64,000 nucleotides of DNA, from contig NZ_QEES01000003.1 in the NCBI RefSeq assembly GCF_003115775.1, positions 1 through 64,000 on the forward strand. The letters are read 5' to 3'. A program made the position numbers and the translations under genes. Shown here in pieces: positions 1-35,390 of the stretch. Below the pieces are notes generated by a model that ran no database searches, was not told where the DNA came from, and saw only the letters and a program-made list of their open reading frames with translations. The number at the start of each line of letters is the position of its first letter. Position 1 is the stretch's first letter. The DNA is from Cellulomonas sp. WB94 (GTDB lineage Bacteria; Actinomycetota; Actinomycetes; Actinomycetales; Cellulomonadaceae).

Positions 1-540
1 ATGCGGTCGACGGGCGAGGTCATGGGCCTCGACGTCGACTTCCCGACGGCCTTCGCCAAGTCGCAGGCCGCCGCGTTCGGCGGGTTGCCGACGTCGGGCA
101 CCGCGTTCATCTCGGTCGCCGACCGCGACAAGCGCTCGATCGTGTTCCCCGTCAAGCGCCTCGTCGAGCTCGGGTTCGAGATCCTCGCCACCGAGGGCAC
201 CGCGGTCGTGCTGCGCCGCAGCGGCATCGCGTCCCGGACGGTGCGCAAGTACTCGCGCGGCGTCGGGGAGGACGGCGAGCCGACGATCGTCGACCTCATC
301 ACCGACGGCAAGGTCGACATCGTCGTCAACACCCCGTCCGGGCAGGGCGGGCGGCGTGACGGGTACGCCATCCGTGCGGCGACGACCGCGGCCGACAAGG
401 CGATCGTCACGACCGTGCAGCAGCTGGGCGCGGCCGTGCAGGGCATCGAGGCGACGCTGTCGGGCCCGTTCTCGGTCACGAGCCTCCAGGAGCACAACGC
501 CGCCGCCGCCGCGCGTCGCACTGCCCGGGCGGGCGCGTGA
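1..540 (+). CDS. carB: Carbamoyl-phosphate synthase large chain, C-terminal part (cut by window edge)
   Basis: The large subunit makes carbamoyl phosphate from ammonia (delivered by CarA), bicarbonate and two ATP, feeding arginine and pyrimidine synthesis in the cytosol. Only the last 179 codons are present. The reading frame is open at base 1, and the opening STGEVMG motif is internal in CarB, so its Met is not the start. The segment is the end of the second synthetase half plus the MGS-like allosteric domain (FISVADRDK, LVELGFEILATEGT, DIVVNTP). The stop overlaps the GTG of pyrF as GTGA, which fits the usual actinobacterial pyrimidine operon. Confidence 0.96.
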   Translation: MRSTGEVMGLDVDFPTAFAKSQAAAFGGLPTSGTAFISVADRDKRSIVFPVKRLVELGFEILATEGTAVVLRRSGIASRTVRKYSRGVGEDGEPTIVDLITDGKVDIVVNTPSGQGGRRDGYAIRAATTAADKAIVTTVQQLGAAVQGIEATLSGPFSVTSLQEHNAAAAARRTARAGA

Positions 541-18423: not shown

Positions 18424-18430
18424 TGACCCG

Positions 18431-19450: not shown

Positions 19451-20423
19451 GCGGGCGAGCGACCGGCTGCTGCGCATGCTGGGGATGATCACCTACCTCG
19501 ACCGGCACGCCGGCGTCCCGGTCGAGCAGATCGCCGAGCACTTCGCCGTCACGCCCGGACAGGTGCTGAGCGACGTCGACACCCTGTGGATGACGGGGAC
19601 CCCCGGCTACTTCCCCCACGACCTCATCGACTTCGACGCCGCGTCGTACGAGCAGGGCGTCGTCCGGCTGACCGAGTCCCGCGGCATGACCCGACCGCTG
19701 CGCCTGGGCACGCGAGAGGCCGTGGTCCTCGTCGCAGCGCTGCGGGCCATGGCCGCCGCGCTCGGTCCGAGCCTCGACCCCGAACGCGCCCGGGTCCTCG
19801 GTTCGGCCCTCGAGAAGCTCACGGCCGCGACCGGTGAGGCCGCGGCGGCGGTCGACGTCCGGCTCGCGGTGGACGGTTCGCCGGCCGTCGTGGCAGCGAT
19901 CGGGACGGCCCTGCAGGCCGGCCACCGGCTGCGCCTGCGGTATGTCAACGCCGCGGACGTGACGAGCGAGCGCGACGTCGACCCGATCCGGCTCATCACG
20001 GACGACGAGCGCTCCTACCTGCTCGGCTGGTGCTACCGGGCCGGCGCCGAGCGGCTGTTCCGGCTCGACCGGGTCCTCGGTGCCGAGGTGCTCGACGACC
20101 TGGTCGACGCCGGTCACACCTCAGGTGCGCGCTCCGTCGAGTTCCACCCCGACCCGACCGGGGGCCTCGTCACGCTGCACCTGACGAGCCGCGGCCGCTG
20201 GGTTGCCGAGAGCGTCCCCGTGGAGGACGTGCGGAACCTGGCTGACGGCACCTTCGAGGTCGACCTCCGGGTCGTCGACCAGGCCTGGCTCCGCCACCTC
20301 CTGCTCCAGGCAGCCGGGGAGGTCCTCGAGGTCCGGCCCGCGTCCGTCGCGCACGACGTCGCCTCGGTCGCCCGCTCGGCCCTCGCCGCGTACGGCCCGT
20401 TCGCCGAGCCGGACCGCGGCTAG
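19443..20423 (+). CDS. pafC: WYL-domain transcriptional regulator PafC
   Basis: PafC is the partner of PafB. The 326-residue protein has the HTH DRLLRMLGMITYLDRHAGVPVEQIAEHFAV and a WYL domain (LRLRYVNAADVTSERDVDPIRLIT, SYLLGWCYRAGAERLFRLDRV). ATG 19443 is chosen because it lies within the pafB end and begins MAERASDRLLRM; an earlier in-frame start would extend into pafB. The TAG stop is also the start of the -10 of the next gene. Confidence 0.94.
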   Translation: MAERASDRLLRMLGMITYLDRHAGVPVEQIAEHFAVTPGQVLSDVDTLWMTGTPGYFPHDLIDFDAASYEQGVVRLTESRGMTRPLRLGTREAVVLVAALRAMAAALGPSLDPERARVLGSALEKLTAATGEAAAAVDVRLAVDGSPAVVAAIGTALQAGHRLRLRYVNAADVTSERDVDPIRLITDDERSYLLGWCYRAGAERLFRLDRVLGAEVLDDLVDAGHTSGARSVEFHPDPTGGLVTLHLTSRGRWVAESVPVEDVRNLADGTFEVDLRVVDQAWLRHLLLQAAGEVLEVRPASVAHDVASVARSALAAYGPFAEPDRG

Positions 20424-20426
20424 GCT
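20421..20426 (+). promoter_or_regulatory. -10 element built on the pafC stop codon
   Basis: TAGGCT starts with the pafC TAG and lies 6 nt before the ATG of the small membrane protein gene, the same layout as at fmt. Confidence 0.5.
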
Positions 20427-20432
20427 GCCCTG

Positions 20433-20756
20433 ATGCTCTGGTTCGCGGTGTGGACCGTCCTCGTGGTGGGGACGCTCCTCGGCGCGTTCTTCCTCGGGCG
20501 TGACCTGTGGCGCAAGGCAGGGGCGCTCCTGAGCGAGCTGGGCCGTGCGGCGGACGCGTTCGGTCGGCTCGCCGACGCGACGGAGCAGGCAGCGACCCCG
20601 GACGGCGTCCCGCCGATCCACGCCCAGCTGTTCGACGACCGCGCTGCGCTGCGGCTGCGGGTCGACGAGCTCCGTGCGGCCCGCCGCGAGCGTGCTGCGC
20701 TCCGGGCGGAGCGTCATGTCGCCACCTTCGCGCGGTGGCGCGCCTACAGTCGCTGA
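20433..20756 (+). CDS. Small single-pass membrane protein, unknown function
   Basis: The 107-residue product has one N-terminal membrane helix (WFAVWTVLVVGTLLGAFFLG) and a cytosolic tail rich in Arg, Ala and Leu that could form a coiled coil (LRVDELRAARRERAALRAE). I do not recognise the family. It sits between pafC and tatA, a conserved spot for a short hypothetical in Micrococcales. It may have its own leaderless promoter. Confidence 0.75.
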   Translation: MLWFAVWTVLVVGTLLGAFFLGRDLWRKAGALLSELGRAADAFGRLADATEQAATPDGVPPIHAQLFDDRAALRLRVDELRAARRERAALRAERHVATFARWRAYSR

Positions 20757-20799
20757 CCGCCTGACCCCGGAGCATTCGGGACCGTGCGCTGGACCCGGT

Positions 20800-20805
20800 T
20801 ACTAT
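20800..20805 (+). promoter_or_regulatory. Likely -10 element of the tatA-tatC transcript
   Basis: TACTAT sits 37 nt before the tatA ATG, leaving a leader of about 31 nt that contains the GGAGAG ribosome site. No good -35 is visible. Confidence 0.4.
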
Positions 20806-20842
20806 CTCCGCAGCACCAATCGATCCCGATGGAGAGACCGTC

Positions 20843-21133
20843 ATGAACGCACTGAAGCCGTGGCATGTCATCGTCCTGCTCGTCGTCGTCCTGCTCCTGT
20901 TCGGGGCGAAGCGGCTTCCGGACCTCGCCAAGAGCGTCGGTGAGTCCCTGAAGATCTTCAAGAGCGAGCTCAAGGACCTGACCGAGGACGACAAGCCGTC
21001 GACCCCGGCAACGCCGCCCGTCGCCACGCCGCCCGTTGTCACTCCTCCTGCTGCGGCTCCCGACACGGCACCGCCGGCTACGTTGCCGCCGCCGTACGAG
21101 GGCTTCGACGGCAGCACCCCGCCACGCACCTGA
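20843..21133 (+). CDS. tatA: Twin-arginine translocase subunit TatA
   Basis: TatA forms the protein-conducting part of the Tat export system for folded proteins. The 96-residue protein has a short N-terminal membrane helix (HVIVLLVVVLLLFGAKRLP) with the FGxxxLP hinge, the amphipathic helix PDLAKSVGESLKIFKSEL, and a proline/threonine-rich tail. ATG 20843 has GGAGAG six bases upstream. tatC begins six bases after the stop. Confidence 0.96.
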   Translation: MNALKPWHVIVLLVVVLLLFGAKRLPDLAKSVGESLKIFKSELKDLTEDDKPSTPATPPVATPPVVTPPAAAPDTAPPATLPPPYEGFDGSTPPRT

Positions 21134-21139
21134 TCTCCG

Positions 21140-21952
21140 GTGCCACCCCAGAGCCGTCGAGGAGATCTCGACGGTCGGATGCCGTTGCGGGAGCACCTGC
21201 GCGAGCTGCGCAAGCGGCTGTTCCTCGCTGCGTGCGGCCTGGCCGTCGGCGCGGTCCTTGGGTGGATCCTGTACGACCCGGTCTTCAAGGCGCTGCAGCA
21301 GCCTCTCCTTGACACTGCCGCCCATCGCGACGGCTTCATCTCGGTGAACTTCTCGGGTCTCGCGACGGCCTTCGACATGAAGATCAAGGTCTCGCTCTTC
21401 CTCGGGATGATCGTGACGAGCCCGTGGTGGCTCTACCAGCTGTGGGCGTTCATCACCCCGGGCCTGACGCGGCGTGAGCGGACCTACGCGATCGGGTTCC
21501 TCGGCGCCGCGGTGCCGCTCTTCCTCGCCGGCTCGTGGCTCGCCTGGTGGACGTTGCCGACGGCCGTCCGGGTGCTCACGGACTTCACCCCCGAAGGCGC
21601 CGCCAACCTGATCGACGCCCAGGTGTACCTGAGCTTCGTGATGCGGTTCGTCATCGCGTTCGGCCTGGCGTTCGTGCTGCCCGTCGTGATGGTCGCGGTG
21701 AACTTCGCCGGCCTGGTCCGAGCCAGCTCGTGGGCCAAGGGATGGCGCTGGGCAGTCCTGCTCTCGTTCGTGTTCGCGGCGGTGATGACGCCGACCCCCG
21801 ACGCAATCACGATGATCGCCATGGCACTGCCCATCGTCGTGCTGTACTTCGCGGCGCTGGGTGTCTGCTTCATCCACGACCGGCGGACCGACAAGAAGCG
21901 CGTCGCCGACGGACTGCCCCGGCTCGACGGCACACGACCGGACGGCGGATGA
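21140..21952 (+). CDS. tatC: Sec-independent protein translocase subunit TatC
   Basis: TatC recognises twin-arginine signal peptides. The 270-residue protein has six predicted membrane segments. It carries the cytosolic N-terminal motif PLREHLRELRKRLF, FSGLATAFDMKIKVSLFLG and the conserved stretch VMTPTPDAITMIAMALP in the late helices. GTG 21140 is the start; MPLREHL at residue 14 is the alternative family-like start. Its stop overlaps the next gene as ATGA. Confidence 0.96.
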   Translation: MPPQSRRGDLDGRMPLREHLRELRKRLFLAACGLAVGAVLGWILYDPVFKALQQPLLDTAAHRDGFISVNFSGLATAFDMKIKVSLFLGMIVTSPWWLYQLWAFITPGLTRRERTYAIGFLGAAVPLFLAGSWLAWWTLPTAVRVLTDFTPEGAANLIDAQVYLSFVMRFVIAFGLAFVLPVVMVAVNFAGLVRASSWAKGWRWAVLLSFVFAAVMTPTPDAITMIAMALPIVVLYFAALGVCFIHDRRTDKKRVADGLPRLDGTRPDGG

Positions 21953-22866
21953 CGACGACTCTGGGGGTCGTCGTCAACCCGACGGCGGACCGCGGTCACG
22001 GCCGCCGAGCGGGCGCGCACGCGATCGAGACGCTCCGGCGCCGCGGTCACACGGTCGAGGACCTCTCGGCGCCTGACCTCGAGGCGGCCACCGCGCGGGC
22101 CCGGCACGCGGCGGTCGACGGCCTGGACGCGCTGGTGGTCGTCGGCGGCGACGGCATGGTCCACCTCGGGGCGAACGTCGTCGCGGACACGGGCCTGCCG
22201 CTCGGGATCGTCGCGGCGGGGACGGGCAACGACCTGCCTCGCGCCCTGGGGCTCCCGCTCGGCGACATCGACGCCGCGGTGACCGCGATCGAGCACGGCC
22301 TGACGCACGGGCCGCGCGCCATCGACGCCGTGAGCGTCCGCCCCCCGCTCCACTCGGCGCACGAGTGGTACCTGGGCGTTCTCTCCTGCGGGATCGACGC
22401 GGCGATCAATGCCCGGGCGAACGCCCTGACCTGGCCGCGCGGCGGTGCCCGCTACGTGCGGGCGCTCGGCACCGAGCTCGGCCGGTTCCGCCCGTACGGC
22501 TACCGACTGACCCTCGACGACCTGGTGTGGGAGTCCGCCGGGACGCTCGTCGCCGTCGCGAACACGCCGTGGTTCGGTGGCGGCATGAAGATCGCCCCGG
22601 ACGCGCTCCCGGACGACGGCCTGCTCGACGTCGTCGTGGCCGGACCGTTCACGAAGCGTGGTGTCGTCCAGATCTTCCCGAGCATCTACTCCGGACGCCA
22701 CGTCCACCACCCGGCCGTCCAGGTGTTCCGGTCCCGGACGGTCCTGATCGAGCCGGTCGGAGCGCTCGGGGGCACACCTCCGGATGCGTTCGCCGACGGG
22801 GAGCGGCTCGGCCCGGTCCCGCTGCTCGCCCAGGTGCACCCGGGCGCCGTCCACGTGCTCGCCTGA
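21949..22866 (+). CDS. Diacylglycerol kinase-family lipid kinase
   Basis: The 305-residue enzyme belongs to the DagK/sphingosine kinase-like family that phosphorylates diacylglycerol or a related lipid, recycling it into phospholipid synthesis. Conserved motifs are VVVNPTADRGHG, LVVVGGDGMVHLGAN and GIVAAGTGNDLPRALGLP in the N-terminal catalytic domain. The C-terminal beta sandwich contains NTPWFGGGMKIAPDALPDDGLLDV. It overlaps tatC by ATGA. The exact lipid is unknown; a NAD kinase is excluded by the C-terminal domain. Confidence 0.9.
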   Translation: MTTTLGVVVNPTADRGHGRRAGAHAIETLRRRGHTVEDLSAPDLEAATARARHAAVDGLDALVVVGGDGMVHLGANVVADTGLPLGIVAAGTGNDLPRALGLPLGDIDAAVTAIEHGLTHGPRAIDAVSVRPPLHSAHEWYLGVLSCGIDAAINARANALTWPRGGARYVRALGTELGRFRPYGYRLTLDDLVWESAGTLVAVANTPWFGGGMKIAPDALPDDGLLDVVVAGPFTKRGVVQIFPSIYSGRHVHHPAVQVFRSRTVLIEPVGALGGTPPDAFADGERLGPVPLLAQVHPGAVHVLA

Positions 22867-22890
22867 CGGCCCTGCGTGCGCCCGGTCACC

Positions 22891-22896
22891 TAGGGT
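22891..22896 (+). promoter_or_regulatory. -10 element for leaderless helY
   Basis: TAGGGT lies 7 nt before GTG 22904, which supports this GTG over the one at 22895. Confidence 0.5.
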
Positions 22897-22903
22897 GAAG
22901 GAC

Positions 22904-25770
22904 GTGGCACCCACGACGAGCAGGCAAGCACCGGACCCCGCCCAAGGGTCACCTGCGGAGCGGTACGCCAGCTCTCGGCGACGCGAGTCGGCCGCCCGCA
23001 CCGAGCTGGCGACGTTCCGCGCGAGCCTGGAGTTCGAGCTCGACGAGTTCCAAGTCGAGGCGTGCGAGGCGGTCGAGCGCGGCAGCGGGGTGCTGGTCGC
23101 AGCGCCGACCGGAGCCGGCAAGACCGTCGTCGGCGAGTTCGCCGTCCACCTGGCGCTCGCGACGGGGCGCAAGGCGTTCTACACCACGCCGATCAAGGCG
23201 CTCTCGAACCAGAAGTACGGCGACCTCGTCCGTCGCCACGGTGCACCGAACGTCGGGCTGCTCACGGGGGACACGACCGTCAACGGCGAGGCCCCGTCGT
23301 CGTCATGACGACCGAGGTGCTGCGCAACATGCTCTACGCGGGCTCGCCGACGCTCGACGGTCTCGGGTTCGTCGTCATGGACGAGGTGCACTACCTCGCT
23401 GACCGGTACCGCGGCCCCGTCTGGGAGGAGGTCATCCTTCACCTGGCCGACGACGTCCAGCTCGTGTCGTTGTCCGCGACGGTGTCCAACGCCGAGGAGT
23501 TCGGCGACTGGCTGACGATGGTGCGCGGCGACACCGCCGTCGTCGTCAGCGAGCACCGCCCGGTGCCCCTGAGCCAGCACGTGCTCGTCCGCGGCGGGCT
23601 CCACGACCTGTACGCCGGTCCGGTCGACCCGACCGACCCGGGCGTGCACCCGCCGATCAACCCTGAGGTCGCGCACCTGCTGCACCGGGTCGAGCGCGAG
23701 GAGGGGCCGCTGCACCGTGGCCGGCGCGGTGGTGGGGAACACGGGGCGCGCGGTCACGGCCGCGGGCCTGGGCCCGGCCTCGGCCGACCCACCCCGCGGT
23801 TCGCCGTCGTCGACCTGCTCGAGGACGCCGAGCTGCTGCCCGCGATCTTCTTCATCTTCTCGCGCGTCGGCTGCGAGGCCGCCGTCTCGCAGTGCCTCGC
23901 GGCGGGGGTGCGCCTCACGACACCGGCCCAGGAGGCCGAGATCCGGCACACCGTCGAGGAGCGGTGCGCGACGATCCCGCACGAGGACCTCGACGTCCTC
24001 GGGTACTGGGCCTTCGTCGAGGCGCTCGCGCGCGGCGTCGCGGCCCATCACGCCGGGATGCTCCCGCTCTTCAAGGAGACCGTCGAGGACCTCTTCGCCC
24101 GCGGGCTCGTGCGGGCCGTCTTCGCGACCGAGACGCTCGCGCTGGGGATCAACATGCCCGCGCGGTCCGTGGTCCTCGAAAAGCTCGTCAAGTGGGACGG
24201 GTCGGCGCACGTCGACATCACCCCGGGGGAGTACACGCAGCTGACCGGGCGCGCGGGACGGCGCGGGATCGACATCGAGGGCCACGCGGTCGTGGTCGCC
24301 CACCCCGGGCTGGACCCGGTCGCGCTCGCCGGGCTCGCCTCCAAGCGCTTGTACCCGCTCCGGTCGAGCTTCCGCCCGACCTACAACATGGCCGTGAACC
24401 TCGTCGCCCAGGTCGGCCGGGACCGGGCACGCGAGGTCCTCGAGACGTCGTTCGCGCAGTTCCAGGCCGACCGCGGCGTCGTCGGGCTGGCGCGCCAGGC
24501 GCAGGGCCATGCCGAGGCGCTCGACGGGTACGCCAAGGCGATGCAGTGCCACCTCGGCGACTTCGCCGAGTACGCCGGCCTGCGCCGCGCGATCACCGAC
24601 CGTGAGCGCGAGCTGACCCGGCAGGCATCGGCGGCGCGGGCCGCCGAGGTCGCGCGGTCGCTGGAGGGTCTCCGGGTCGGTGACGTGCTCGAGCTGCCCG
24701 CCGGGCGCCGGCCCGCGCACGCCGTCGTCCTCGACCCCGGCACGCCCGGCGGCTTCGAGGGGCCTCGGCCGACGGTCCTGACGACCGACCGGCAGATCCG
24801 GCGCCTGGCGGTCGCCGATGTGGGGACCGGTGCTCGCACCGTCGGCTACCTGCGGGTCCCTCGGGGCTTCAACTCCCGCGTCGCAGCAGCGCGCCGCGAC
24901 CTCGCCGCGGCGCTGCGTGCCTCCGTGCCCGACGGCGGCCACCACGGTGCCGCACCCGTCCGAGGCTCCGGACGGCGTGCGAACCGCCGCGCGAGCTCGG
25001 CCGATGACGCGGTGCTGACCGACCTGCGCCGCCGCCTGCGTGCCCACCCGTGCCACGGCTGCCCCGATCGCGAGGAGCACGCCCGGTGGGCCGAGCGGTG
25101 GGCCCGGTTGCGCACCGAGCACGACGCGCTCGTGCACCGCATCGAGGGCCGGACGGGCTCGATCGCGAAGGTGTTCGACCGGATCTGCGACGTGCTGCAG
25201 CAGCTCGGCTACCTCGTCGTCCCCGAGGGGCCGGGCGAGGCGCGCGACCGGATGGTCGTGACCGCAGAGGGTCAGTGGCTACGCCGCCTGTATGCCGAGA
25301 ACGACCTTCTGCTCGCGGAGTGCCTGCGGCGCGGCGCCTGGGACGATCTGGACGCGCCGGCCCTCGCCGCGGCCGTCTCGACCCTCGTGTACTCCTCGCG
25401 GCGCGACGACCGGGAGTCGGAACCGGCGGTGCCCGGTGGACCGCAGGGCAAGCTCGGTCGGGCCCTCGAGCAGACGGTGCGCATCTGGTCGGAGCTCGAG
25501 GACTTCGAGGCCGCGCACCGGCTCGAGGCGACCGTCCCGCTCGACCTGGGGCTCGTCCAGTCCGTGCACCGCTGGGCCGCGGGCCGCAGCCTCGACGCCG
25601 TGCTGCGGGGCAGCGACCTCGCGGCCGGGGACTTCGTGCGGTGGTGCAAGCAGGTCATCGACCTGCTCGACCAGCTGTCGCAGGCGGCACCCGACCCGAC
25701 CCTCGCGCACACGGCCCACCAGGCCGTCTCGGCGCTCCGCCGGGGGGTCGTCGCGTACTCGTCCTTGTGA
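22904..25770 (+). CDS. helY: Ski2/Mtr4-like DEVH-box helicase HelY, with a one-base frameshift
   Basis: HelY is a large superfamily 2 helicase thought to act on RNA. Motifs run in order: APTGAGKTVVGEFAVHLA (Walker A), TTPIKALSNQKY, MDEVHYLADRYRG (DEVH), SLSATVSNAEEFG, FIFSRVGCEAA, HHAGMLPLFKE, ATETLALGINMPAR and QLTGRAGRRGID. The DSHCT-type C-terminal region follows. At 23292-23296 (CCCCG, residue about 130) the first frame runs into a stop at 23308. The next motif MTTEVLRNMLYAG continues in the -1 frame to 25770, so one base is missing. GTG 22904 is chosen; 22895 is possible. Gene order pafBC-tatAC-kinase-helY matches mycobacteria. Confidence 0.92.
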
Positions 25771-25810
25771 CCGTACGGCGGCTCGACGGGTGGGCGCGTT
25801 CCGTCGTCAT

Positions 25811-25816
25811 TAGGGT
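25811..25816 (+). promoter_or_regulatory. -10 element for a leaderless amidohydrolase transcript
   Basis: TAGGGT lies 8 nt before GTG 25825. It overlaps a TTG at 25816 that would otherwise be read as the start. Confidence 0.45.
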
Positions 25817-25824
25817 TGTCCGAT

Positions 25825-27477
25825 GTGACCTCAACCCTGTACCGCCGCGGCGTCATCCACTCGGCTGCCGACCCGTTCGCGGAGGCGATCCTCGTCGACG
25901 GTGCCACGATCGCCTGGATCGGCGCCGACGACACGGCTGACGGCCTGGCGGCCCGGGCGGACGAGGTGGTCGACCTCGACGGCGCTCTCGTAGCCCCCGG
26001 CTTCGTCGATGCGCACGCGCACGTCCTCGCAACCGGTCTCGCGATCGAGGGACTCGACCTCTCGCCCGGTGCGGCCGGCGGGTCGCTCACCGACGTCCTG
26101 GCATCCGTCCACCGTGCGGCCGAGGACGCCCGTCACGGATCGCCCGACGCGTTGGCGCAGCCGCTGCTCGGGTTCGGCTGGGACGACCACGGGTGGGCGG
26201 AGGGCCGGGCGCCCTCGGTCGACGACCTGGACCGAGCCGGCGGCGGGGCGCCGGTGTACCTGGCTCGCGCGGACGCCCACTCGGGCGTCGTGTCGTCATC
26301 GTTCGCGGAGGTCGCCGGACTGCGTGGCCTGGCCGGCTGGCACGACGACGGACGGGTCGACGGCGCGGCCCATGCGCGGGCGCGCGAGGTTGCGCGTGAC
26401 GTCCCCACGGGTCGTCGCGACGAGCTCTACCGCCTCGCGCTGCGGTCGGCTGCCGCGGCGGGCGTCGTCTCGCTGCACGAGCACAGCACGCCGTCGACCG
26501 ACACCCGCGACGGTCTCGCTGCGCTGCTGGCGATGACGGCCGATGCCGAGAGCGGTCTGACGCACGTCGTCGGGTACCGCGGCGAGGCGTGCGTCACGAG
26601 CGACGACGCGCACGAGATCATGGCAGCGATCCCCGGCCTCGCCGGCATCGGGGGCGACCTCCTCGTCGACGGCTCGTTGGGCTCGCACTCGGCCGCGCTC
26701 CGCGCACCGTACGTCGATGTGCCCGGCGGAGACCGCGGGACGCTGTTCCTGAGCGCCGAGCAGATCTGCAACCACGTGGCGGCTGTCACGCGCGCCGGGG
26801 TCCAGGCCGGGTTCCACGTGATCGGCGACCGCGCGATGGACGAGTTCATGCTCGGGCTCCGGGCCGCCGTGGACGTCGAGGGCATCGACGCGATCCGCGG
26901 TGCGGGTCACCGGCTCGAGCACGCCGAGATGATCGATGCCATGACCTTGGCCGGTCTCGTCCTGCTGGGGGTGCACCTGAGCATGCAGCCGGCGTTCGAC
27001 GCGGCCTGGGGTGGCCCGGACGGGATGTACGCGGCCCGCCTGGGCGCCGGTCGCGCGGCCTCGCTCAACCCGTTCGCGGACGTCGCCGCAGCCGGCATCC
27101 CCGTCGCGTTCGGCTCGGACTCGCCCGTCACCCGCATCGACCCCTGGGCCGCGGTCCGGGCCGCGGTCGGTCACCACCAGCGCGACCAGCGGATCTCCGC
27201 GCGCGCAGCCTTCCGGGCGCACACCCGCGGGGGCTGGCGCGCCGCCCATCTCGACCACACGGGCGCCGGCGAGCTCCGGGTCGGCGCCCCGGCGCACCTC
27301 GCCGTGTGGCGGGCCGAGAACCTCGCCGTGCAGGGCGCCGGTCGCGCCACCTCGGGGTGGAGCACCGATGCGCGGGCTGGGACCCCCCTCCTTCCGGACC
27401 TGGATCCGCAGGCCGCCACCCCCGTCTGCGTGCGCACGGTGCGGGCCGGTGTCGTCCTGCACGACGAGCTCGGCTGA
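25825..27477 (+). CDS. YtcJ-like amidohydrolase
   Basis: This 550-residue metal-dependent hydrolase belongs to the amidohydrolase_3 family; the substrate is unknown. The metal site begins VAPGFVDAHAHVLATG. Further conserved parts are LLGFGWDDHGWAEG, VSLHEHST, FHVIGDRAMDEFM, HRLEHAEMI and VAFGSDSPVTRIDPW, the last carrying the catalytic Asp. GTG 25825 fits a leaderless start and gives VTSTLYRRGVIHSA. It ends before a 391-bp non-coding stretch. Confidence 0.88.
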   Translation: MTSTLYRRGVIHSAADPFAEAILVDGATIAWIGADDTADGLAARADEVVDLDGALVAPGFVDAHAHVLATGLAIEGLDLSPGAAGGSLTDVLASVHRAAEDARHGSPDALAQPLLGFGWDDHGWAEGRAPSVDDLDRAGGGAPVYLARADAHSGVVSSSFAEVAGLRGLAGWHDDGRVDGAAHARAREVARDVPTGRRDELYRLALRSAAAAGVVSLHEHSTPSTDTRDGLAALLAMTADAESGLTHVVGYRGEACVTSDDAHEIMAAIPGLAGIGGDLLVDGSLGSHSAALRAPYVDVPGGDRGTLFLSAEQICNHVAAVTRAGVQAGFHVIGDRAMDEFMLGLRAAVDVEGIDAIRGAGHRLEHAEMIDAMTLAGLVLLGVHLSMQPAFDAAWGGPDGMYAARLGAGRAASLNPFADVAAAGIPVAFGSDSPVTRIDPWAAVRAAVGHHQRDQRISARAAFRAHTRGGWRAAHLDHTGAGELRVGAPAHLAVWRAENLAVQGAGRATSGWSTDARAGTPLLPDLDPQAATPVCVRTVRAGVVLHDELG

Positions 27478-27626
27478 CGCCCGTCGCACGAAGTTCACTC
27501 GAACGGGTGGGTCACTCGGCGCGGCGCCGACACGCCGCACGACACGCCGCGGCGATTCGTGCGAACCGGGAGCAACCACCGGAGTGGTGACCTGCACGTA
27601 CTCGTGTGACCTGCGTCGATGGCCGC

Positions 27627-27654
27627 TTGACACTCTCTGCCGACCCGGTAGGTT
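27627..27654 (+). promoter_or_regulatory. Strong vegetative promoter in the gap before lnt
   Basis: A consensus TTGACA (27627-27632) and TAGGTT (27649-27654) are spaced 16 bp. Transcription should start near 27661, more than 200 bp before lnt, so it serves an untranslated RNA or a long leader. Confidence 0.7.
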
Positions 27655-27660
27655 CACTGA

Positions 27661-27835
27661 GTGTTCCGCCCCCGCGGATGACCGGTCACCTGAGGTTCAT
27701 CCTCGGGGTGCGGCCTGCAGGGGAGGACCCCGGCTAGGCCCGCGTGTTCAGTAGAAAACGGACGGGACGCCTCACGGCGACGTCCGGCACGAAGGACACG
27801 CGGGCCGGTCGACGGGGCGCGCAGCGCCCCTGACA
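27661..27835 (+). ncRNA. Candidate structured RNA between amidohydrolase and lnt
   Basis: The 391-bp gap 27478-27868 has no convincing gene. Downstream of the strong promoter it holds a run of perfect stems: TCCGC/GCGGA around a CCCC loop (27665-27678), CGGGGT/ACCCCG (27704-27732), an 11-bp stem GGCCCGCGTGT (27737-27747) with ACACGCGGGCC (27796-27806) that encloses CGGACG/CGTCCG plus CGCC/GGCG (27759-27786), and GGGGCGC/GCGCCCC at 27814-27830. It is not tmRNA, RNase P RNA or SRP RNA by any motif I can see. It could be a stable small RNA or a regulatory leader of lnt. The first 150 bases of the gap (27478-27626) show nothing clear. Confidence 0.5.
27814..27830 (+). terminator. 7-bp GC hairpin, possible end of the structured RNA
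   Basis: GGGGCGC and GCGCCCC pair perfectly around a GCA loop. There is no T tract after it, so it may be a terminator or just the last stem of the leader. Confidence 0.4.
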
Positions 27836-27856
27836 TCGTGGTCCGGCACGCTGACG

Positions 27857-27862
27857 TAGTCT
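27857..27862 (+). promoter_or_regulatory. -10 element for leaderless lnt
   Basis: TAGTCT lies 6 nt before the lnt GTG, so lnt may be transcribed separately from the upstream structured RNA. Confidence 0.5.
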
Positions 27863-27868
27863 TCAGCG

Positions 27869-29446
27869 GTGCCATTCCGCGAGCCCACCCGCGAGCCCGC
27901 CCGTTGGTCGTCCTTGGCCCTCGCGGTCGCCGGGGGAGCGCTCACGTGGGCATCGTTCCCCGACCTCGGCTGGTGGGGAGCCGCAGCTCCTGGGGTCGGG
28001 CTGCTCGTCCTCGCCCTGCGTCGCGACAGCGCGCGCTGGAACGCCCTGATCGGGCTCGTCTGGGGCCTCACCTTCTTCCTGCCTCACATCACCTGGGCGG
28101 ACTACGCCGTCGGGCGGGTCCCGTGGTTCGCCCTTGCCGCCTTCGAGGCCGGGTATGTCGCCCTCTTCGGTGCCGCGTGGACCTGGGCCCGGCGCGGCAA
28201 CGCCGTCTGGCGCAACAGGTGGCTCCAGGTGATCGTGTTCGTCGTCCTCTGGGTCGCCATGGAGGAGCTCCGCTCCGCGTGGCCGTTCGGGGGCTTCCCC
28301 TGGGGACGGCTGGCGTTCTCCCAGGCCGACTCGCCCGTCTCGGCGCTGGCCTGGCTGGGCGGCGCGCCCCTCGTCTCGGCGGCGGTGGCCCTTGCCGGCA
28401 TCCTCCTCGCCCAGGCGTGGACGGCTGCGCGGCGCCTCGTCGTCCCCCGGGTCTTCGTCCGGCTCGCACTGGCCGGCGCCGTGCTCGTCGCGGGCCTGTT
28501 CGTGCCGCTCGACACGCGCGCCGAGGCCGGCACGCTCGCGGTGGGCGCCGTGCAGGGCAACGTGCCGAACGCCGGTCTGGACGCCTTCGCGCAGGCCCGC
28601 GTCGTGCTCGGCAACCACGTGGCCGGGACGCTCGCCCTTCTCGACCAGGTCGAGCCGGGGCAGCTCGACCTGGTCCTGTGGCCCGAGAACGGCACGGACG
28701 TCGACCCGCAGGCGGACGGAGCAGCAGCCGACGAGATCGACGCCGCGGCACGGGCCGTGCAGGCACCGATGCTTGTCGGCACCGTCCAGTACCCGCCGAG
28801 CGGCGGTCGCTACAACACCGCAGTCTTGTGGCTTCCCGGACAAGGTGTCGTGGCGCAGTACTCCAAGCAGCATCCGGCGCCGTTTGCCGAGTACATCCCG
28901 CTCCGCTCCCTGGTGCGTCCGTTCTCCTCGGCCGTCGACCTCGTCACCCAGGACATGATCGCCGGGACCAAGGTCGGGCTCGTGCCGCTCGAGTCCGCTC
29001 GACTCGGGCGCACCGTCGGGATCGGGGACGTCATCTGCTTCGAGGTGGCCTACGACGCTCTGCCTCGCGCGGCGGTCCTGGCCGGGGCCGAGCTGCTGGT
29101 CGTCCAGACGAACAACGCCTCGTTCGGGTTCACCGCGGAGTCCACGCAGCAGCTGGCGATGAGCCGGCTGCGCGCGATCGAGCTCGGTCGAGCGACCGTC
29201 CAGATCTCCACTGTCGGCGTCAGCGCGATCATCGAGCCCAACGGCGCCGTCTCGCACCAGACAGCGCTTTTCACTTCCGGCCAGCTGGTGGCTACGCTGC
29301 CGCTGCGCCATTCCCTCACGCCTGCCGCCCGGCTCGGAGACTGGCCTGCGTGGATTGCCGACGCACTCGCCCTGTGCGTCGTCGTGACCGGGATGGCTGG
29401 TGCGCTGCGCATCCGCCGCGAGAACCGCACCGAAGGAGTCTCATGA
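27869..29446 (+). CDS. lnt: Apolipoprotein N-acyltransferase
   Basis: Lnt transfers a fatty acyl chain to the N-terminal Cys of lipoproteins in the membrane. The 525-residue protein has an N-terminal block of about six membrane segments and a nitrilase-like domain (about residues 225-475), then a final membrane helix. The catalytic triad is visible: Glu in [12 protein letters not shown], Lys in [14 protein letters not shown], and Cys in [11 protein letters not shown]. The stop overlaps ppm1 as ATGA. In Mycobacterium tuberculosis these two activities are one fused protein; here they are two coupled genes. Confidence 0.95.
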
Positions 29447-30231
29447 CCGCCGACAACGCCGACACCCAGCCCCGGGTGCTCGTCGTCATCCCGACGTACG
29501 ACGAGCGGGAGAACCTCCCGACGGCGCTCGAACGGCTCCGCGCGAGCGTGCCCGACGCCGACCTCCTGGTCGTGGACGACGGCTCGCCCGACGGCACCGG
29601 CGAGCTCGCCGAGAAGATCGCCGCACAGGACGAAGAGGCGTCAGGCCGCACCACCATCTATGTGCTGCACCGCACCGGCAAGCTCGGCCTCGGCACCGCC
29701 TACATCACCGGCTTCCGGTGGGCGCTCGAGCGTGGCTACGACGTGATCGTCGAGATGGACGCCGACGGCTCGCACCGCGCCGAGGACCTGCCGCGCCTGC
29801 TGGACGCGGTCGCCGGTGCCGACCTCGTGATCGGATCGCGCTGGGTGCCCGGCGGGAGCGTCGTCAACTGGCCGGTCAGCCGTCAGCTCCTCTCCCGCGG
29901 CGGCAACACCTACACCCGGCTCGCGTTGGGGCTGCCGCTGCGGGACGCGACGGCAGGCTTCCGAGCGTTCCGCGCCGAGACCCTCGCGACGATGGCGCTC
30001 GACGAGGTCGCCTCCGCCGGGTACTGCTTCCAGGTCGACATGGCCTGGCGCGTGCAGCGGGCCGGCGGCCGCATCGTGGAGGTGCCCATCACGTTCGTCG
30101 AGCGCGAGCTCGGCCGGTCGAAGATGAGCCGCGCGATCGTCGTCGAGGCCCTCGCCAACGTCACGGTGTGGGGTGTCGAGCAGCGCGCACGTCAGCTGGG
30201 CGCTGCCGTGCGCCGACTGCGCCGCCGCTGA
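29443..30231 (+). CDS. ppm1: Polyprenol monophosphomannose synthase
   Basis: This GT2-family enzyme transfers mannose from GDP-mannose to polyprenyl phosphate, giving the lipid donor for membrane glycolipid and glycoprotein mannosylation. The 262-residue protein shows [47 protein letters not shown] (the DXD-like metal site), and [17 protein letters not shown] 29443 has GAAGGAG eight bases upstream and overlaps the lnt stop. No membrane domain is attached, so it probably acts with Lnt at the membrane. The stop lies in a tandem repeat. Confidence 0.93.
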
Positions 30232-30265
30232 CCTGCGCCGTAGCTGACCTGCGCCGCAGCTGACC
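30227..30265. repeat. 16-bp tandem repeat spanning the ppm1 stop codon
   Basis: The unit GCTGACCTGCGCCGTA (30227-30242) is followed by GCTGACCTGCGCCGCA (30243-30258) and a partial third copy GCTGACC. Each copy contains TGA; the first is the ppm1 stop. Confidence 0.9.
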
Positions 30266-30305
30266 GCCCCGGAACGGCTTCTGTTCCTCCCACCCGCCAG
30301 AGACG

Positions 30306-30351
30306 CAGCAGAACGGCCGCCGTCCCGTGAGGGCTGGCGGCCGTTCTGCTG
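30306..30351. terminator. Bidirectional hairpin terminator between ppm1 and rbpA
   Basis: A perfect 16-bp inverted repeat starts CAGCAGAACGGCCGCC and closes after a 14-base loop. It lies between convergent ppm1 and rbpA and can terminate both. There is no long T tract on either side. Confidence 0.75.
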
Positions 30352-30394
30352 GGCCGTGCTCGCGGCGCAAGAGCTGCGAGCCGGTCGGTGGATC

Positions 30395-30739
30395 TCAGGC
30401 GCTCCGGCGCAGCTTGCCGGCGCGGAGAAGGTCGAGCCGCTCGTCGAGGAGCTCCTCGAGCTCCTTGACGGTCCGACGCTCCAGGAGCATGTCCCAGTGC
30501 GTGCGCGGGGCCTTGCCCGCCTTGGGCTCCGGCTTGGACGCGTCCCGCAGGAGCGCCTCCTCGCCGCAGCGGCACTCCCAGGTGACCGGAACGTCCGCCT
30601 CGACAGAGAACGGCAGGATGATCGTGTGTCCGTTGGGGCAGTCGTAGTGAGCCTGAAGACGAGGGGCGAACTCGACGCCCTCTTCCGTCTCCATGCTGTG
30701 GGAACCGATGCGCATTCCGCGCAGTGACCGGTTCGACAT
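30395..30739 (-). CDS. rbpA: RNA polymerase-binding protein RbpA
   Basis: RbpA binds the primary sigma factor and RNA polymerase and stabilises open promoter complexes in actinobacteria. The 114-residue protein begins MSNRSLRGMRIGSHSMETEEG and has the core domain with YDCPNGHTIILPF and the CRCGEEALL metal-binding pair. The basic linker and the sigma-interaction helix RTHWDMLLERRTVKELEELLDERLDLLR follow. ATG 30739 is chosen because GGAGG lies just upstream; a longer reading to 30787 lacks support. The gene sits after lnt-ppm1 as in mycobacteria. A SigR-type promoter lies about 125 bp upstream. Confidence 0.94.
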   Translation of the reverse strand: MSNRSLRGMRIGSHSMETEEGVEFAPRLQAHYDCPNGHTIILPFSVEADVPVTWECRCGEEALLRDASKPEPKAGKAPRTHWDMLLERRTVKELEELLDERLDLLRAGKLRRSA

Positions 30740-30862
30740 GTAGGACCTCCGTGCGTTGCCGTGCCGTGGGGCGTCGTTCGCCGCCATCTGACGTCTCGGT
30801 GTGAACCGCCCGCATCGAACCGCCTGCCGTGCGGTTCCCGAGCAGTGACTTCCAGGAGGCTC

Positions 30863-30888
30863 AACGACCAGGCCGCCCTCAATGTTCC
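30863..30888 (-). promoter_or_regulatory. SigR/SigH-type promoter upstream of rbpA
   Basis: On the minus strand GGAAC (30888-30884) and GTT (30865-30863) are 18 bp apart, the oxidative-stress ECF sigma pattern GGAAY-N18-GTT. It points at rbpA, which in Streptomyces coelicolor is a SigR target. The predicted leader is about 115 nt. Confidence 0.5.
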
Positions 30889-30982
30889 AGTGTGGCGTGA
30901 AGGTCTCGTGAACGCGCGTCGGGCGAGGGACGAGCTGAGGCCGCGCATGGTCGCAGCGGGGGAGCGCGCGGGGCGAGCACGC

Positions 30983-31528
30983 TCACCACGAGGTGCTCAG
31001 GATCCGTGCGCGGTCCCGCCCGATGGCCGCCTCGGCCCGGATCCGGACGGCCTCCCGATGCGCACCGACGTGCAGCGCCGACGACCATCCGGCCTCGAAT
31101 GCGCCGAGGTCGCCACCACCGCGCCGCACGTAGCCCACGACGACAGATCCGCCCGGCGCGTCATGCTCGAGGACGGAGGCCAGGACGTGCACGAGATTGG
31201 CCGCGACGACAGCGTCCGGCACGGTGGGCACCTCGGCGATCGGAAGGACGAGCGGCAGGACCTGGTCGGCGGCATCGAGCACCAGGAACCACAACGCGGG
31301 GGGTCCGTCGCGTTCGGGACCGACGACACGCATCAGCACGTCGAGGGCGTCCCGCGCGTCGTCGAGGGTACGGCCGGTCACGGGCAGGGAGTCGTCGTCG
31401 GTCCCGGTGTCGCCGTCGAGCCAGGGGACGTCCGCCAGGTCGTCGTCGGGATCGGCGGCCCAGTGCCCGTCAGTGCCCGGAAACAGCTCGTGGTTCGCCA
31501 CCGGGTGGCGCGTCGCATCGTCGGTCAT
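30983..31528 (-). CDS. Conserved hypothetical protein (actinobacterial)
   Basis: The 181-residue acidic protein has no signal peptide or membrane helix. The first 60 residues are rich in Asp (DPDDDLADVPWLDGDTGTDDDS); the rest looks like an alpha/beta fold (LWFLVLDAADQVLPLVLPI, SVVVGYVRRGGGDLG). I do not recognise a family. ATG 31528 is the chosen start; GTG 31546 would add six residues. It stands alone between rbpA and the ABC transporter gene, with 75 bp or more on both sides. Confidence 0.75.
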   Translation of the reverse strand: MTDDATRHPVANHELFPGTDGHWAADPDDDLADVPWLDGDTGTDDDSLPVTGRTLDDARDALDVLMRVVGPERDGPPALWFLVLDAADQVLPLVLPIAEVPTVPDAVVAANLVHVLASVLEHDAPGGSVVVGYVRRGGGDLGAFEAGWSSALHVGAHREAVRIRAEAAIGRDRARILSTSW

Positions 31529-31621
31529 GACCTGACCCTGGCTCACCCGCCGTGTCGCCGACGGCGCGCACGCGCTGAGCGCTGGCGCAGCTCAGGCGTC
31601 GAGAGGCTGTGGGTGGCCCGG

Positions 31622-33649
31622 TTACCCGGCAGCGGTGCTCGGCTGGGACAGCACGACGCCGTCCGTGAACATGATCCCGTCGCTGAATCGCGCCTCGACG
31701 CGTCCGCCACCGAACTGCTCGGCGTACAGGCGCGCATAGAGCCCGTCGGCCACCTGGACCAGCTCGTCGTGCGTGCCGCGCTCGACGACCTGCCCCTCGT
31801 CGACGACGAAGATCACGTCGGCGTGGCGGATCGTCGAGAGCCGATGGGCGATCGCGAGGGTCGTGCGCTGGTCGACCGCGCGCGCGAGCGCCGACTGGAC
31901 GAGCCGTTCGGACGACGAGTCCAGCGCCGACGTCGCCTCGTCGAGGATGAGGATCCGGGGGTTCTTGAGCAGGACCCGAGCGATCGCGATGCGCTGCTTC
32001 TCACCGCCGGAGAGCCGATAGCCACGTTCGCCGACCAGCGTGCGGTAGCCGTTCTCGAACGCCTCGATCCGGTCGTGGATGTTCGCCGCTCGGCAGGCCT
32101 CGACGAGCTCGTCGTCGGTCGCGTCGGGGCGTGCGTACCGCAGGTTGTCGGCGATCGACGCATGGAACAGGTAGGGGTCCTGCGTCACCATCCCGATCGC
32201 GTTGGCGAGGCTCGACAGCGTGAGGTCACGCACGTCGTGGCCGTCGACGAGCACGGCGCCCTCATCGATCTCGTACAGGCGGGGCACGAGGTAGCTCAGC
32301 GTGGTCTTGCCGGCGCCGGACGGGCCCACGAACGCGGCGAGCTGGCCGGGCTCGACGGTGAGCGAGACGCCACGGACCGCCCACGAGCGCGCCCGAGCGG
32401 GCCGCTCGGGTTCGGGCATCGGCTCGATGCGGCGCGTCGGCGTCGCGACACCGAGCGGCGCGCCGTGCCTGCCGCTCCACCGGCCCGGCAGCGGGGGCGG
32501 CTGGACGAGCCGTGGGGGAGCGGGGTAGCGGAACCAGACGTCCCGGAGCTCGACCCGCCCGGCCTCGCCGGCGTGGGTCAGCGCCACAGCCTCCGACCGG
32601 TCGGTGATCGCGGGCGTGAGGTCGAGATACTCGAAGATGCGCCGGAACAGCGCGAGCGACGTCTGCACATCGAGGGCGATCCGCATGAGCGAGATCACCG
32701 GCATCAGCAGGCGGGCCTGGAGGGTCGAGAACGCGACGAGCGTCCCCGCCGTGAGCACCCCGCCCCCGAACGAGCCTGTCATCATCGACCCGGCGACGAG
32801 GTAGACGAGCGCCGGCGTGACGGCCATGAACGCGGTGACGACGCCGAAGAAGCCCTGACCGGCCATCGCCTGCCGCACCTGCAGGTCGACCTGGCGGTCG
32901 TTCTCCGCCCGGTAACGGGCGATCTCGGCATCGGAACGGTTGAACACCTTGGTCAGCAGGACCCCGGAGACGCTGAGGGCCTCCTCGGTGATCGCCGTCA
33001 TGTCCGACAAGGACTCCTGCGTGGCCCGCGCGATCGCCTGCCGTCGTGCGCCGACCCGCCGCTGCAGGACGATGAAGAGCGGCATCAGGGCCACGGCGAC
33101 GAGCGTCAGCTGCCAGCTGAGCAGCAGCATCGCGATGGTGGAGGCGAGCACGGTCACGGTGTTCGAGAGGATCGACGACGCTGTCGTCGTCAGGACCGAG
33201 CGGACGCCGCCGACGTCGTTCGCCAGCCTCGACTGGATCGAGCCGGTCTTCGTCGCCGTGAAGAACGCGAGCTCCATGCGTTCGAGGTGCTCGAACAGCC
33301 GTCCCCGCAGGTCGGCCATCGCGAGGTTGCCGACCTTCGTCGTCAGGAACGTCTGCCCGACGCCGATCGCGGCGCTGAGCAGCGGGATGACGACCATCGC
33401 CGCGACCAGGATCACCAGCAGACGCAGGTGCACCCCCGAGCCGTCCGCCGGGAACAGCGCATCGTCGAAGACGCGCTGGGTGAGGAACGGCGTGACGATG
33501 CCGAGCAGCGACGCGACGACGATCGAGACCGCGACGAGGAGGAGCTCCCCGCGGTAGGGCGAGAGGAGCGCCCAGATCCTGCGCAGGATCGGGTCTGCCA
33601 GGGCCGTGCCCCGCGCGGGCACGTCCGAGGCGGTCGGGGTCGGCGTCAT
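31622..33649 (-). CDS. ABC exporter, fused membrane and ATPase domains
   Basis: The 675-residue protein is a type IV half-transporter that should dimerise to export a drug, lipid or peptide. Six membrane segments occupy about residues 25-330. The ATPase domain has VGPSGAGKTTLSYL (Walker A), RLSGGEKQRIAIARVLL (signature), ILILDEATSALDSS (Walker B) and AHRLSTIRHAD (switch His). An unusual proline/arginine-rich insert of about 45 residues sits between the first strand (VELRDVWFRYP) and VRGVSLTVEPGQ. The ATG at 33649 is clear. No partner half-transporter is adjacent, so substrate is unknown. Confidence 0.93.
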   Translation of the reverse strand: MTPTPTASDVPARGTALADPILRRIWALLSPYRGELLLVAVSIVVASLLGIVTPFLTQRVFDDALFPADGSGVHLRLLVILVAAMVVIPLLSAAIGVGQTFLTTKVGNLAMADLRGRLFEHLERMELAFFTATKTGSIQSRLANDVGGVRSVLTTTASSILSNTVTVLASTIAMLLLSWQLTLVAVALMPLFIVLQRRVGARRQAIARATQESLSDMTAITEEALSVSGVLLTKVFNRSDAEIARYRAENDRQVDLQVRQAMAGQGFFGVVTAFMAVTPALVYLVAGSMMTGSFGGGVLTAGTLVAFSTLQARLLMPVISLMRIALDVQTSLALFRRIFEYLDLTPAITDRSEAVALTHAGEAGRVELRDVWFRYPAPPRLVQPPPLPGRWSGRHGAPLGVATPTRRIEPMPEPERPARARSWAVRGVSLTVEPGQLAAFVGPSGAGKTTLSYLVPRLYEIDEGAVLVDGHDVRDLTLSSLANAIGMVTQDPYLFHASIADNLRYARPDATDDELVEACRAANIHDRIEAFENGYRTLVGERGYRLSGGEKQRIAIARVLLKNPRILILDEATSALDSSSERLVQSALARAVDQRTTLAIAHRLSTIRHADVIFVVDEGQVVERGTHDELVQVADGLYARLYAEQFGGGRVEARFSDGIMFTDGVVLSQPSTAAG

Positions 33650-33698
33650 GCGGACAGTCTCACCCGTCCCCGCACGCGGCCGCGAACCCAGGGCCGGG

Positions 33699-34769
33699 TC
33701 AGGCGAGCTGCGTCACAACGCCACCGGCGATGGCTCGTCGCGTCGAGACGAGCGCGACGCCGGTCCCGATGACCGCGCCGATGAGTGTCTCGAGGGCGCG
33801 GTCCCGGAGCAGCACGTCGGCGGGCACGCTGCCGACAAGCAGGTTCATGAGCAGGGCGAGCGGGGTGATGAAGATCATCGCGAACCCGTAGTTGCGCACG
33901 ACGAACAGCTCGGCCACGGTCTGGAGCGCCACGACGACGAGCACGAGCACCCAGCCGGCCGGATGAAGTGCGAAGAGACCGGCGGCGACGACCAGCCCGA
34001 CGGCGGTGCCGGCGAGACGGTGGCTCGCGCGCAGGAGCTGGCCTGGCGTGTCCGACACGGCGAGCGGCACGACGGCGGCGACCATGGCCCATCCCGGGTG
34101 GCCGATCCCGGCGATGGTCGCGACACCGCCCGCGGCCAGCGCGGCGATCCCGTACCGCAGCGCGTGGCGGCGCAGCGTGCTCTCCTCGACGAGCCGTCGC
34201 ACCCCGAACGGCGGCGACGAGGCCCGCTCGCGGGCACGCCGCGCCGGGCTCAGAGCGCCCCCGAGCCCGACGAGGAGCGCGAGGCCGGCCGAGGCGCTCG
34301 CGACGGCCACAGCGGCGAGGACATCGGCCGGCACCGCGGGCACGCCGGCGCACGTCGCGACGGCGAACACCGAGAACAGCGGACCGGCGGGGCGCCAACC
34401 GGTGGCGTCTCCGACGAGCGAGCCGAGGATCGCCGTCAGCACCGAGGCCGCGACGATCGCCCACCGGGCAAGCTGTCCGTCCGGAACGACGGCCGAGACC
34501 GCGGTCCCGAGCCCCACCGCGAAGACGAGCGTCACGGCGGCGGCGAGCTGGGTGTGCAGGCGCCGGCGGTAGCCTTCGCCCCGGCCGTACAGCGAGGTGA
34601 ACGCGCCGAACGCGGCGTACGCGAGCCAGCCCCGGTGGCCCGTCGCCGTGAGCAGGACGAGGGGGAGACCCACCGACACGCCCGCCCGCAGCGCGACCCA
34701 GTGGCTCTCGTTGTGCGGTCCGAACCGGACGAGGTCACGGGGGCGGGGAGCATGGGCGACAAGGGGCAC
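33699..34769 (-). CDS. FUSC-family inner-membrane protein (putative aromatic acid/drug efflux)
   Basis: The 356-residue protein has two sets of membrane segments separated by a cytosolic stretch, the layout of FUSC/aromatic-acid exporter family proteins. Hydrophobic runs such as LRAGVSVGLPLVLL, VTLVFAVGLGTAVSAVV, LVVAAGLFALHPAGWVLVLVVVALQTVAEL and FAMIFITPLALLMNLLVGS are clear. GTG 34769 is chosen because a GGAGG site lies about ten bases upstream; longer readings run through the marR promoter. It is divergent from marR with a palindrome in the gap, so MarR probably represses it. Confidence 0.85.
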   Translation of the reverse strand: MPLVAHAPRPRDLVRFGPHNESHWVALRAGVSVGLPLVLLTATGHRGWLAYAAFGAFTSLYGRGEGYRRRLHTQLAAAVTLVFAVGLGTAVSAVVPDGQLARWAIVAASVLTAILGSLVGDATGWRPAGPLFSVFAVATCAGVPAVPADVLAAVAVASASAGLALLVGLGGALSPARRARERASSPPFGVRRLVEESTLRRHALRYGIAALAAGGVATIAGIGHPGWAMVAAVVPLAVSDTPGQLLRASHRLAGTAVGLVVAAGLFALHPAGWVLVLVVVALQTVAELFVVRNYGFAMIFITPLALLMNLLVGSVPADVLLRDRALETLIGAVIGTGVALVSTRRAIAGGVVTQLA

Positions 34770-34811
34770 AGCGGGGCTACCTCCACGGGGGGACAGGTTG
34801 GGGGAACTCTG

Positions 34812-34831
34812 ATAGTTTACCAGTAAACTAT
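34812..34831. promoter_or_regulatory. 20-bp palindromic operator between FUSC gene and marR
   Basis: ATAGTTTAC, CA, GTAAACTAT is a perfect inverted repeat and strikingly AT-rich for this genome. It lies in the 84-bp divergent gap and is the obvious MarR binding site. TAAACT inside it could serve as the marR -10. Confidence 0.75.
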
Positions 34832-34853
34832 TGCGATCGGAGCGACAGGGCTG

Positions 34854-35390
34854 ATGACGAGCGTCACACCGCGGGGAACCGGCGACGTCGGCGGTCTCGG
34901 CGACGGGCCGCGCGACTGGATCGACCACACGCAGGCCCGCTGGGCCGAGCTTCGACCAGAGCTCGACCTCGCACCCTTGGGCGTCGTGGGACGACTGCTG
35001 CGGGCTGCACAGCTCGTCATGGCGCGTTGCGAGGCGTACCTCGAGCCGTTCGACCTCAGCCGCGCCGAGTTCGACATCGTCTCGGCGCTGTGCCGCAGCG
35101 ACGGACCGATCAGTCCCGGCGACCTCACGCGCCAGCTGATGTTCACCGGACCGGCCACCACGAAGCGCCTGAGGCGTCTGGAGCACGCCGACTGGATCGC
35201 CCGCAGCGTCAACCCTGACGACGCCCGCGGGTTCCTGATCGTCGCGAGCGACGACGGTGCACGCCGGTTCGCCGAGCTGCTGCCTGGCTATCTCGGGCTC
35301 GAGGCGTCACTCGTCGGCGTGCTGGACGACGACGAACGCACCGTGCTGGCCGCGACGCTGCGCCGGCTGCTCGTCGACTGGGACGCCTGA
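34854..35390 (+). CDS. MarR-family transcriptional regulator
   Basis: The 178-residue protein has the MarR winged helix: LSRAEFDIVSALCRSDGPISPGDLTRQLMFTGPATTKRLRRLEHADWIARSVNPDDARG, and flanking dimerisation helices. It should bind a small ligand and lose affinity for DNA. ATG 34854 has GGAG twelve bases upstream. It faces the FUSC transporter gene across a 20-bp palindrome, which suggests autoregulation and control of the transporter. Confidence 0.92.
   Translation: MTSVTPRGTGDVGGLGDGPRDWIDHTQARWAELRPELDLAPLGVVGRLLRAAQLVMARCEAYLEPFDLSRAEFDIVSALCRSDGPISPGDLTRQLMFTGPATTKRLRRLEHADWIARSVNPDDARGFLIVASDDGARRFAELLPGYLGLEASLVGVLDDDERTVLAATLRRLLVDWDA

Follow-up and report, generated by a model that had tools for sequence, protein, structure and literature searches.

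The 64,000 nt of Cellulomonas sp. WB94 DNA that were analysed (the window) contain, between an amidohydrolase gene and lnt, a member of a structured RNA family which is well supported and new. We consider that this RNA is a stand-alone non-coding RNA with its own housekeeping-type promoter, which would form a ribonucleoprotein (RNP) through an internal loop and act in trans, and to this reading we give a probability of roughly 0.55. The features on which the description is based are collected in Table 1.

Table 1. Features of the RNA locus and of its neighbourhood in the window
Feature	Position	Strand	Basis or remark
Amidohydrolase family 3, upstream gene	25816..27477	+	Pfam PF07969, E 8.6e-59
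Two CGACACGCCG copies, upstream of promoter	27528-27537 and 27540-27549	+	by eye
Two direct TGACCTGC repeats, 19-bp period, 5' of the -35; candidate regulator site	27588..27614	+	by eye
Promoter, sigma-70 type, TTGACA-16-TAGGTT	27627..27654	+	-35 27627-27632, 16-nt spacer, -10 27649-27654
Predicted RNA, promoter to core end	27661..27820	+	both ends predicted
5' domain, sequence and length differ between families	27661..27724	+	comparison of relatives
Conserved core	27725..27820	+	covariance model: 90 bits (R1), 79.4 bits (R2)
Helix P0, 5' strand	27730..27735	+	partner 27807-27812; 5/6 pairs form here
Helix P1, 5' strand	27737..27749	+	partner 27794-27806
Internal loop, 5' side, AGUAGAAAA	27750..27758	+	
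Helix P2, first five pairs, 5' strand	27759..27763	+	partner 27782-27786
Internal loop, 3' side, GCACGAA	27787..27793	+	
Helix P1, 3' strand	27794..27806	+	
7-bp GC hairpin GGGGCGC-GCA-GCGCCCC, without U tract	27814..27830	+	
lnt's own -10, TAGTCT	27857..27862	+	six bases ahead of GTG 27869
lnt, apolipoprotein N-acyltransferase, GTG start	27869..29446	+	Pfam PF20154, PF00795
ppm1-like glycosyltransferase family 2, overlapping the lnt stop	29443..30231	+	Pfam PF00535, translation
rbpA, convergent, third gene after the RNA	30395..30787	-	Pfam PF13397, E 2.1e-42

The original prediction, made from the letters of the window alone, had placed a vegetative promoter ahead of a structured RNA. This promoter is the sole exact TTGACA-16..18-TANNNT of the window on either strand, and 50 block shuffles gave a mean of 0.02 and a maximum of 1. 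With a minimum of four letters out of six shared with TATAAT, a scan of positions 18000-37900 detected no promoter; TAGGTT shares only three. In the relatives a strict promoter (TTGACN-16..18-TANNNT) lies within 300 nt upstream of 63 of 174 cores, every spacer being of 16 nt, with 0/174 on the reverse strand and 0/174 downstream of the cores; 174 of the 186 cores collected entered this count, 12 being left out for short flanks. The remaining 111 of 174 have no strict match, some of them because their -35 is weaker. The RNA transcribed from this promoter would be approximately 150-170 nt long here, and a longer form of approximately 235-262 nt is predicted in other families; where a strict promoter was recognised (63 RNAs), the distance between predicted start and core end lies in the ranges 100-208 nt and 235-262 nt.

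Two repeated words were found upstream of the promoter. The word CGACACGCCG recurs at this place in many relatives (by eye), and its position there is what speaks for it, since its two copies in the window compare with 2.26 by chance. The word TGACCTGC occurs nine times in the window against 2.43 expected, and its repeats upstream of the promoter, direct here and in several families and inverted in others (by eye), suggest a candidate regulator. A second TGACCTGC pair, at 30229-30252 on the + strand, begins where the ppm1-like gene has its stop codon. Exact pairs of this word 6-30 nt apart number six in the genome, two of them in the window; a TGACCTGC regulon was considered and dropped, the other four pairs having no common context by eye.

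The 180 nt that start at 27661 have a folding energy of -102 kcal/mol, compared with -83.5 (sd 4.7) for 200 dinucleotide shuffles, none of which folds as well (z -3.94, 0/200). The stretch behind the promoter is predicted to be highly structured, as had been proposed, and the perfect 11-bp stem enclosing an inner hairpin is present as a part of the 13-pair helix P1, which has one G-U pair. Other parts of that description need correction. The wording of "five perfect stems" was loose, for the 11-bp and 7-bp stems exist but the fold predicted for the 5' part varies with the choice of 3' end, and the final 7-bp GC hairpin, although in the sequence, is by eye absent even from the nearest relative (L002). 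No U tract follows the core in the window, and read-through into lnt may thus occur.

The relatives keep one plan, with a promoter, a variable 5' part and a conserved core. The original prediction had been made to depend on covariation, and this was found to be strong, with changes on both sides in 24 of 26 pairs in each of two alignments, A5 (78 rows, found through DNA similarity or through R1) and A6 (80 rows from the class, 73 of them distinct), both fitted to the covariance models R1 (built from 29 cores) and R2 (from 78 cores). In A5 95.0% of the cells are paired against 78.8% in shuffles, and in A6 92.1% against 73.8%. A5 has 314 cells with changes on both sides, where shuffles have 80 and slid partners no more than 54; A6 has 315, where the corresponding values are 77 and no more than 73. 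Under the same sliding the covariation score drops from 0.456 to 0.075 or less (A5) and from 0.549 to 0.115 or less (A6). Moreover, P0, P1 and P2 were recovered by RNAalifold from 37 short-form RNAs that MAFFT had aligned without fitting to the model. The covarying helices by which a structured RNA is recognised are thus present in the core. In the 37 short forms RNAalifold found no shared structure for the 5' domain, and for 25 long forms it gave a second, 5' rod, most of whose pairs hardly vary. The short forms were drawn from the 186 cores, which had been chosen by their loop letters and by at least six of eight paired P1 positions, and the pairing and loop letters of that set are biased accordingly.

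The rod formed by the core is interrupted by an asymmetric internal loop of nearly invariant sequence, in which AGUAGAMAA faces GNNCGAA. The loop statistics were drawn from A5 because 61 of the 80 rows of A6 came from a DNA pattern with fixed loop letters. In A5 nine of the 16 loop columns are invariant (78/78 rows), three are conserved in 73-76 of 78 rows and four vary freely, namely positions 2 and 7 on the 5' side and positions 2 and 3 on the 3' side. Fixed loop strands next to compensating helix changes resemble a protein-binding (or ligand-binding) RNA site. A sarcin-ricin-like bulged-G module, AGUA/GAA, was considered but is not claimed here, since 24 of 78 rows have C or A, and one row has U, in place of the G that would be bulged. 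Of the 100 sources for A6, the 20 without a match at E 1e-4 comprise 19 pattern loci; 18 of those inspected are of Micromonospora, Salinispora, Plantactinospora and Actinoplanes type, with fewer P1 pairs, and many have lnt.

A DNA search found the segment in 7/7 genomes of the genus. With R2 the family gave matches in 88/150 genomes (16/25 genera), a count preferred to the 66/150 genomes of a DNA search at E <=0.001, in which many matches were short. R1 found the RNA in 78/396 genomes (33/110 genera) of the order, and R2 in 151/394 genomes (63/138 genera) of the class and in 133/150 genomes (34/39 genera) of the order of genome G715. The RNA is thus widespread but patchy, the majority of the sampled order and class genomes having no listed match; the searches with both models were run with stricter filters, so that genomes without a match may carry diverged copies. 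There is mostly one copy per genome; the exceptions, with two matches each, are one listed genome of the class set (G632) and 12 of the 133 genomes from the order of G715. In the genome of Cellulomonas sp. WB94 the search for a second copy gave one match with E 0.77, and in Streptomyces-like genomes weak second copies had E 0.4 or worse; none of these was counted. In addition, a DNA pattern scan of named genomes found at least 119 stretches, and among the matches listed are Nonomuraea, Nocardiopsis, Micromonospora, Actinoplanes, Salinispora, Kineosporia, Nocardioides, Actinotalea and Frankiaceae. A metagenome-assembled genome labelled Melainabacteria, with ppm1 behind the RNA, is also among the pattern matches listed; it is probably mislabelled.

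The original prediction could not place the RNA in a known family, and the search of Rfam 15 agrees with this. At gathering score the whole window matched the FMN riboswitch only (11549-11684 on the + strand, 89.8 bits), and 19 related loci gave 0 matches. At E <=5 the region 27480-27900 gave two matches, of 18.1 bits where 50 are needed and of 15.9 where 32 are needed, and at E <=1 there was no match in eight loci. No tRNA or tmRNA was found in the window. No description of the RNA was found in the main texts searched; supplementary sRNA tables may list it unnamed. For S. avermitilis, 139 sRNA units are reported, only two of them as matching Rfam (PMC8780764). Structured bacterial non-coding RNAs are a known kind, and what is new is a family without a relative in Rfam 15 or in the searched main texts.

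The original prediction had left the choice between a small RNA and a leader that controls lipoprotein acylation genes. As a long leader of the lnt-ppm1 operon made from the strong promoter, riboswitch-like or autoregulated by a protein, the RNA would act in cis, its loop sensing a ligand or protein and setting read-through into lnt. The strong synteny with lnt and ppm1 is the reason why such a role keeps a share of the probability. In 160 of the 186 cores lnt is on the same strand, downstream and within 2.8 kb, an arrangement that a leader would yield likewise, and seven of the other 26 (L074, L080, L093, L148-L150, L272) have ppm1 downstream; several of the 26 end with the fetched stretch. 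By tblastn, Lnt is downstream in 37/40 loci of the order (the exceptions are L074, L080 and L093), and outside the order it was matched in 16/20 loci, on the same strand in 15/20 and on the opposite strand in one (L158). Moreover, in some Streptosporangiaceae-like loci the lowest core helix appears by eye A-rich/U-rich and terminator-like. The Lnt motif RF01711, named for the same gene and a probable cis-regulator, is listed from Chlorobi (PMC2864571), but its covariance model has no match in the present region.

Against a leader stands the promoter of lnt itself. The leaderless -10 that had been claimed for lnt is in place in the window, and of 154 loci 84 have such a -10, with TANNNT placed 5-7 nt ahead of an in-frame start, compared with 1 of 153 for the control; six of the 160 lnt loci were dropped because they lack an in-frame start, and 70 of the 154 have no -10 by this test. 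In the Streptomyces-like loci L148-L150 ppm1 follows the RNA and there is no lnt, as is also the case in L074, L080, L093 and L272. In three loci of one genus label, g166 (L158, L173 and L174), the RNA core is inverted with respect to both neighbours, amidohydrolase and lnt; no promoter was seen on the RNA strand of these loci. Compact cores of 80-103 nt occur in seven further loci (L167, L177, L180, L182, L184, L186, L188), with scores of just 35-46 bits and differing orientations to their neighbours, and no lnt was found near them. The loop strands of these compact copies are mostly GAGUAGACAACG and CGGCCCCAAAGG, and the adjoining genes resemble, judging by eye from translations, those for a PaaI-type thioesterase or for the transport of branched-chain amino acids.

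Furthermore, lnt also occurs without a nearby RNA match. Among 20 genomes chosen for the absence of a listed R2 match 18 carry lnt, and their 20 lnt loci (with approximately 1.5 kb of flanks) contain no full RNA match; a truncated match (E 0.21) that L324 has at its edge was left out of the count, and the genome of L324 may hold the RNA. A second, less similar lnt-like match is present in two genomes, G008 and G036 (L330 and L331). Taken together, the -10s of lnt, the loci with ppm1 only, the inverted RNAs, the compact copies and the occurrence of lnt without a nearby RNA match favour a stand-alone RNA with moderate confidence. Of the two options a small RNA therefore fits better, and a plain leader is disfavoured by the -10s of lnt and by the inverted and displaced copies; in our judgement the leader is unlikely, while being the most serious of the alternatives.

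It is also conceivable, at considerably longer odds than a leader, that the RNA binds RNA polymerase (RNAP) in the manner of 6S, Ms1 or CoRP, perhaps with its neighbour RbpA. The rod with an internal loop, the own promoter, the usually single copy, the class-wide occurrence and rbpA as the third gene after the RNA are in keeping with this. 6S RNA (Rfam RF00013), a ligand of the primary sigma holoenzyme, is likewise stand-alone with an internal loop in a rod, but a 6S covariance match was found neither in this region of the window nor in the 19 related loci. Ms1 RNA (MTS2823, scr3559) is also actinobacterial, structured and very widespread, with an own promoter and an internal loop in a rod, and is described as one long hairpin of approximately 300 nt with a central bubble (PMC4191392). 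Ms1 binds the RNAP core. It differs from the present RNA in its locus, which adjoins a gene for a HAD hydrolase (in S. coelicolor, sco3558-sco3559), and it has itself been reported in Cellulomonadaceae too (PMC9130861). Identity with Ms1 was rejected on the locus, the flanks here being amidohydrolase and lnt-ppm1-rbpA without HAD hydrolase synteny. The CoRP RNA of Corynebacterium is a further structured actinobacterial RNA, reported as 516 nt long, located between tRNA genes and with close homologs only in Corynebacterium (PMC11077062). According to the main text of the same source, RIP-seq in S. coelicolor identified scr3559 and scr0792 as the RNAs associated with RNAP, which speaks against an RNAP-binding role of the present RNA, as do the lack of an Rfam match and the difference in locus from Ms1. 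RNAP-bound scr0792, with approximately 85 nt, is near the compact copies in size (PMC11077062).

The 3' loop strand is often GGUCCGAAGG. A ligand of the Ro/TROVE protein similar to Y RNAs was considered for this reason. The ten-letter word is shared with Y RNAs, where we take it to be the Ro site, but TROVE (PF05731) occurs in 15/118 class genomes and is absent from the genome of the window, whereas the RNA is found in 151/394; with no general co-occurrence, Ro/TROVE is too rare and is largely refuted as a general partner, which makes this reading very improbable. We give equally little credence to a DNA element or a simple transcription terminator or insulator, for which GC-rich hairpins in the intergenic gap and the U-rich 3' strands of some families (by eye) could be cited, but which does not agree with strand-specific, near-invariant loop letters beside covarying helices, nor with the promoter ahead of part of the relatives.

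According to the reading that we prefer, the housekeeping-type promoter would drive a stand-alone RNA ending near the core, of which the working part would be the 3' rod, made of P0, P1, the internal loop and the freely covarying apical hairpin P2. The loop would dock a protein (or a ligand), and the resulting RNP would act in trans, the lnt-ppm1-rbpA neighbourhood being mostly inherited. More broadly, and with a little less assurance, the RNA may represent an unrecognised class-wide actinobacterial family, usually in single copy, whose loop docks a conserved protein to form a housekeeping RNP with the breadth of Ms1 but distinct from it in kind, and with a second, compact form elsewhere.

Stand-alone bacterial RNAs that extend over a whole class are few and tend to be central, as in the case of RNase P, tmRNA, 6S and Ms1. 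The present RNA has a mostly fixed place, an own promoter and a near-invariant loop across many families, and it occurs also in Streptomyces-like genomes. Tractable hosts are available, and the near-invariant loop can serve as a direct bait in the search for the partner.
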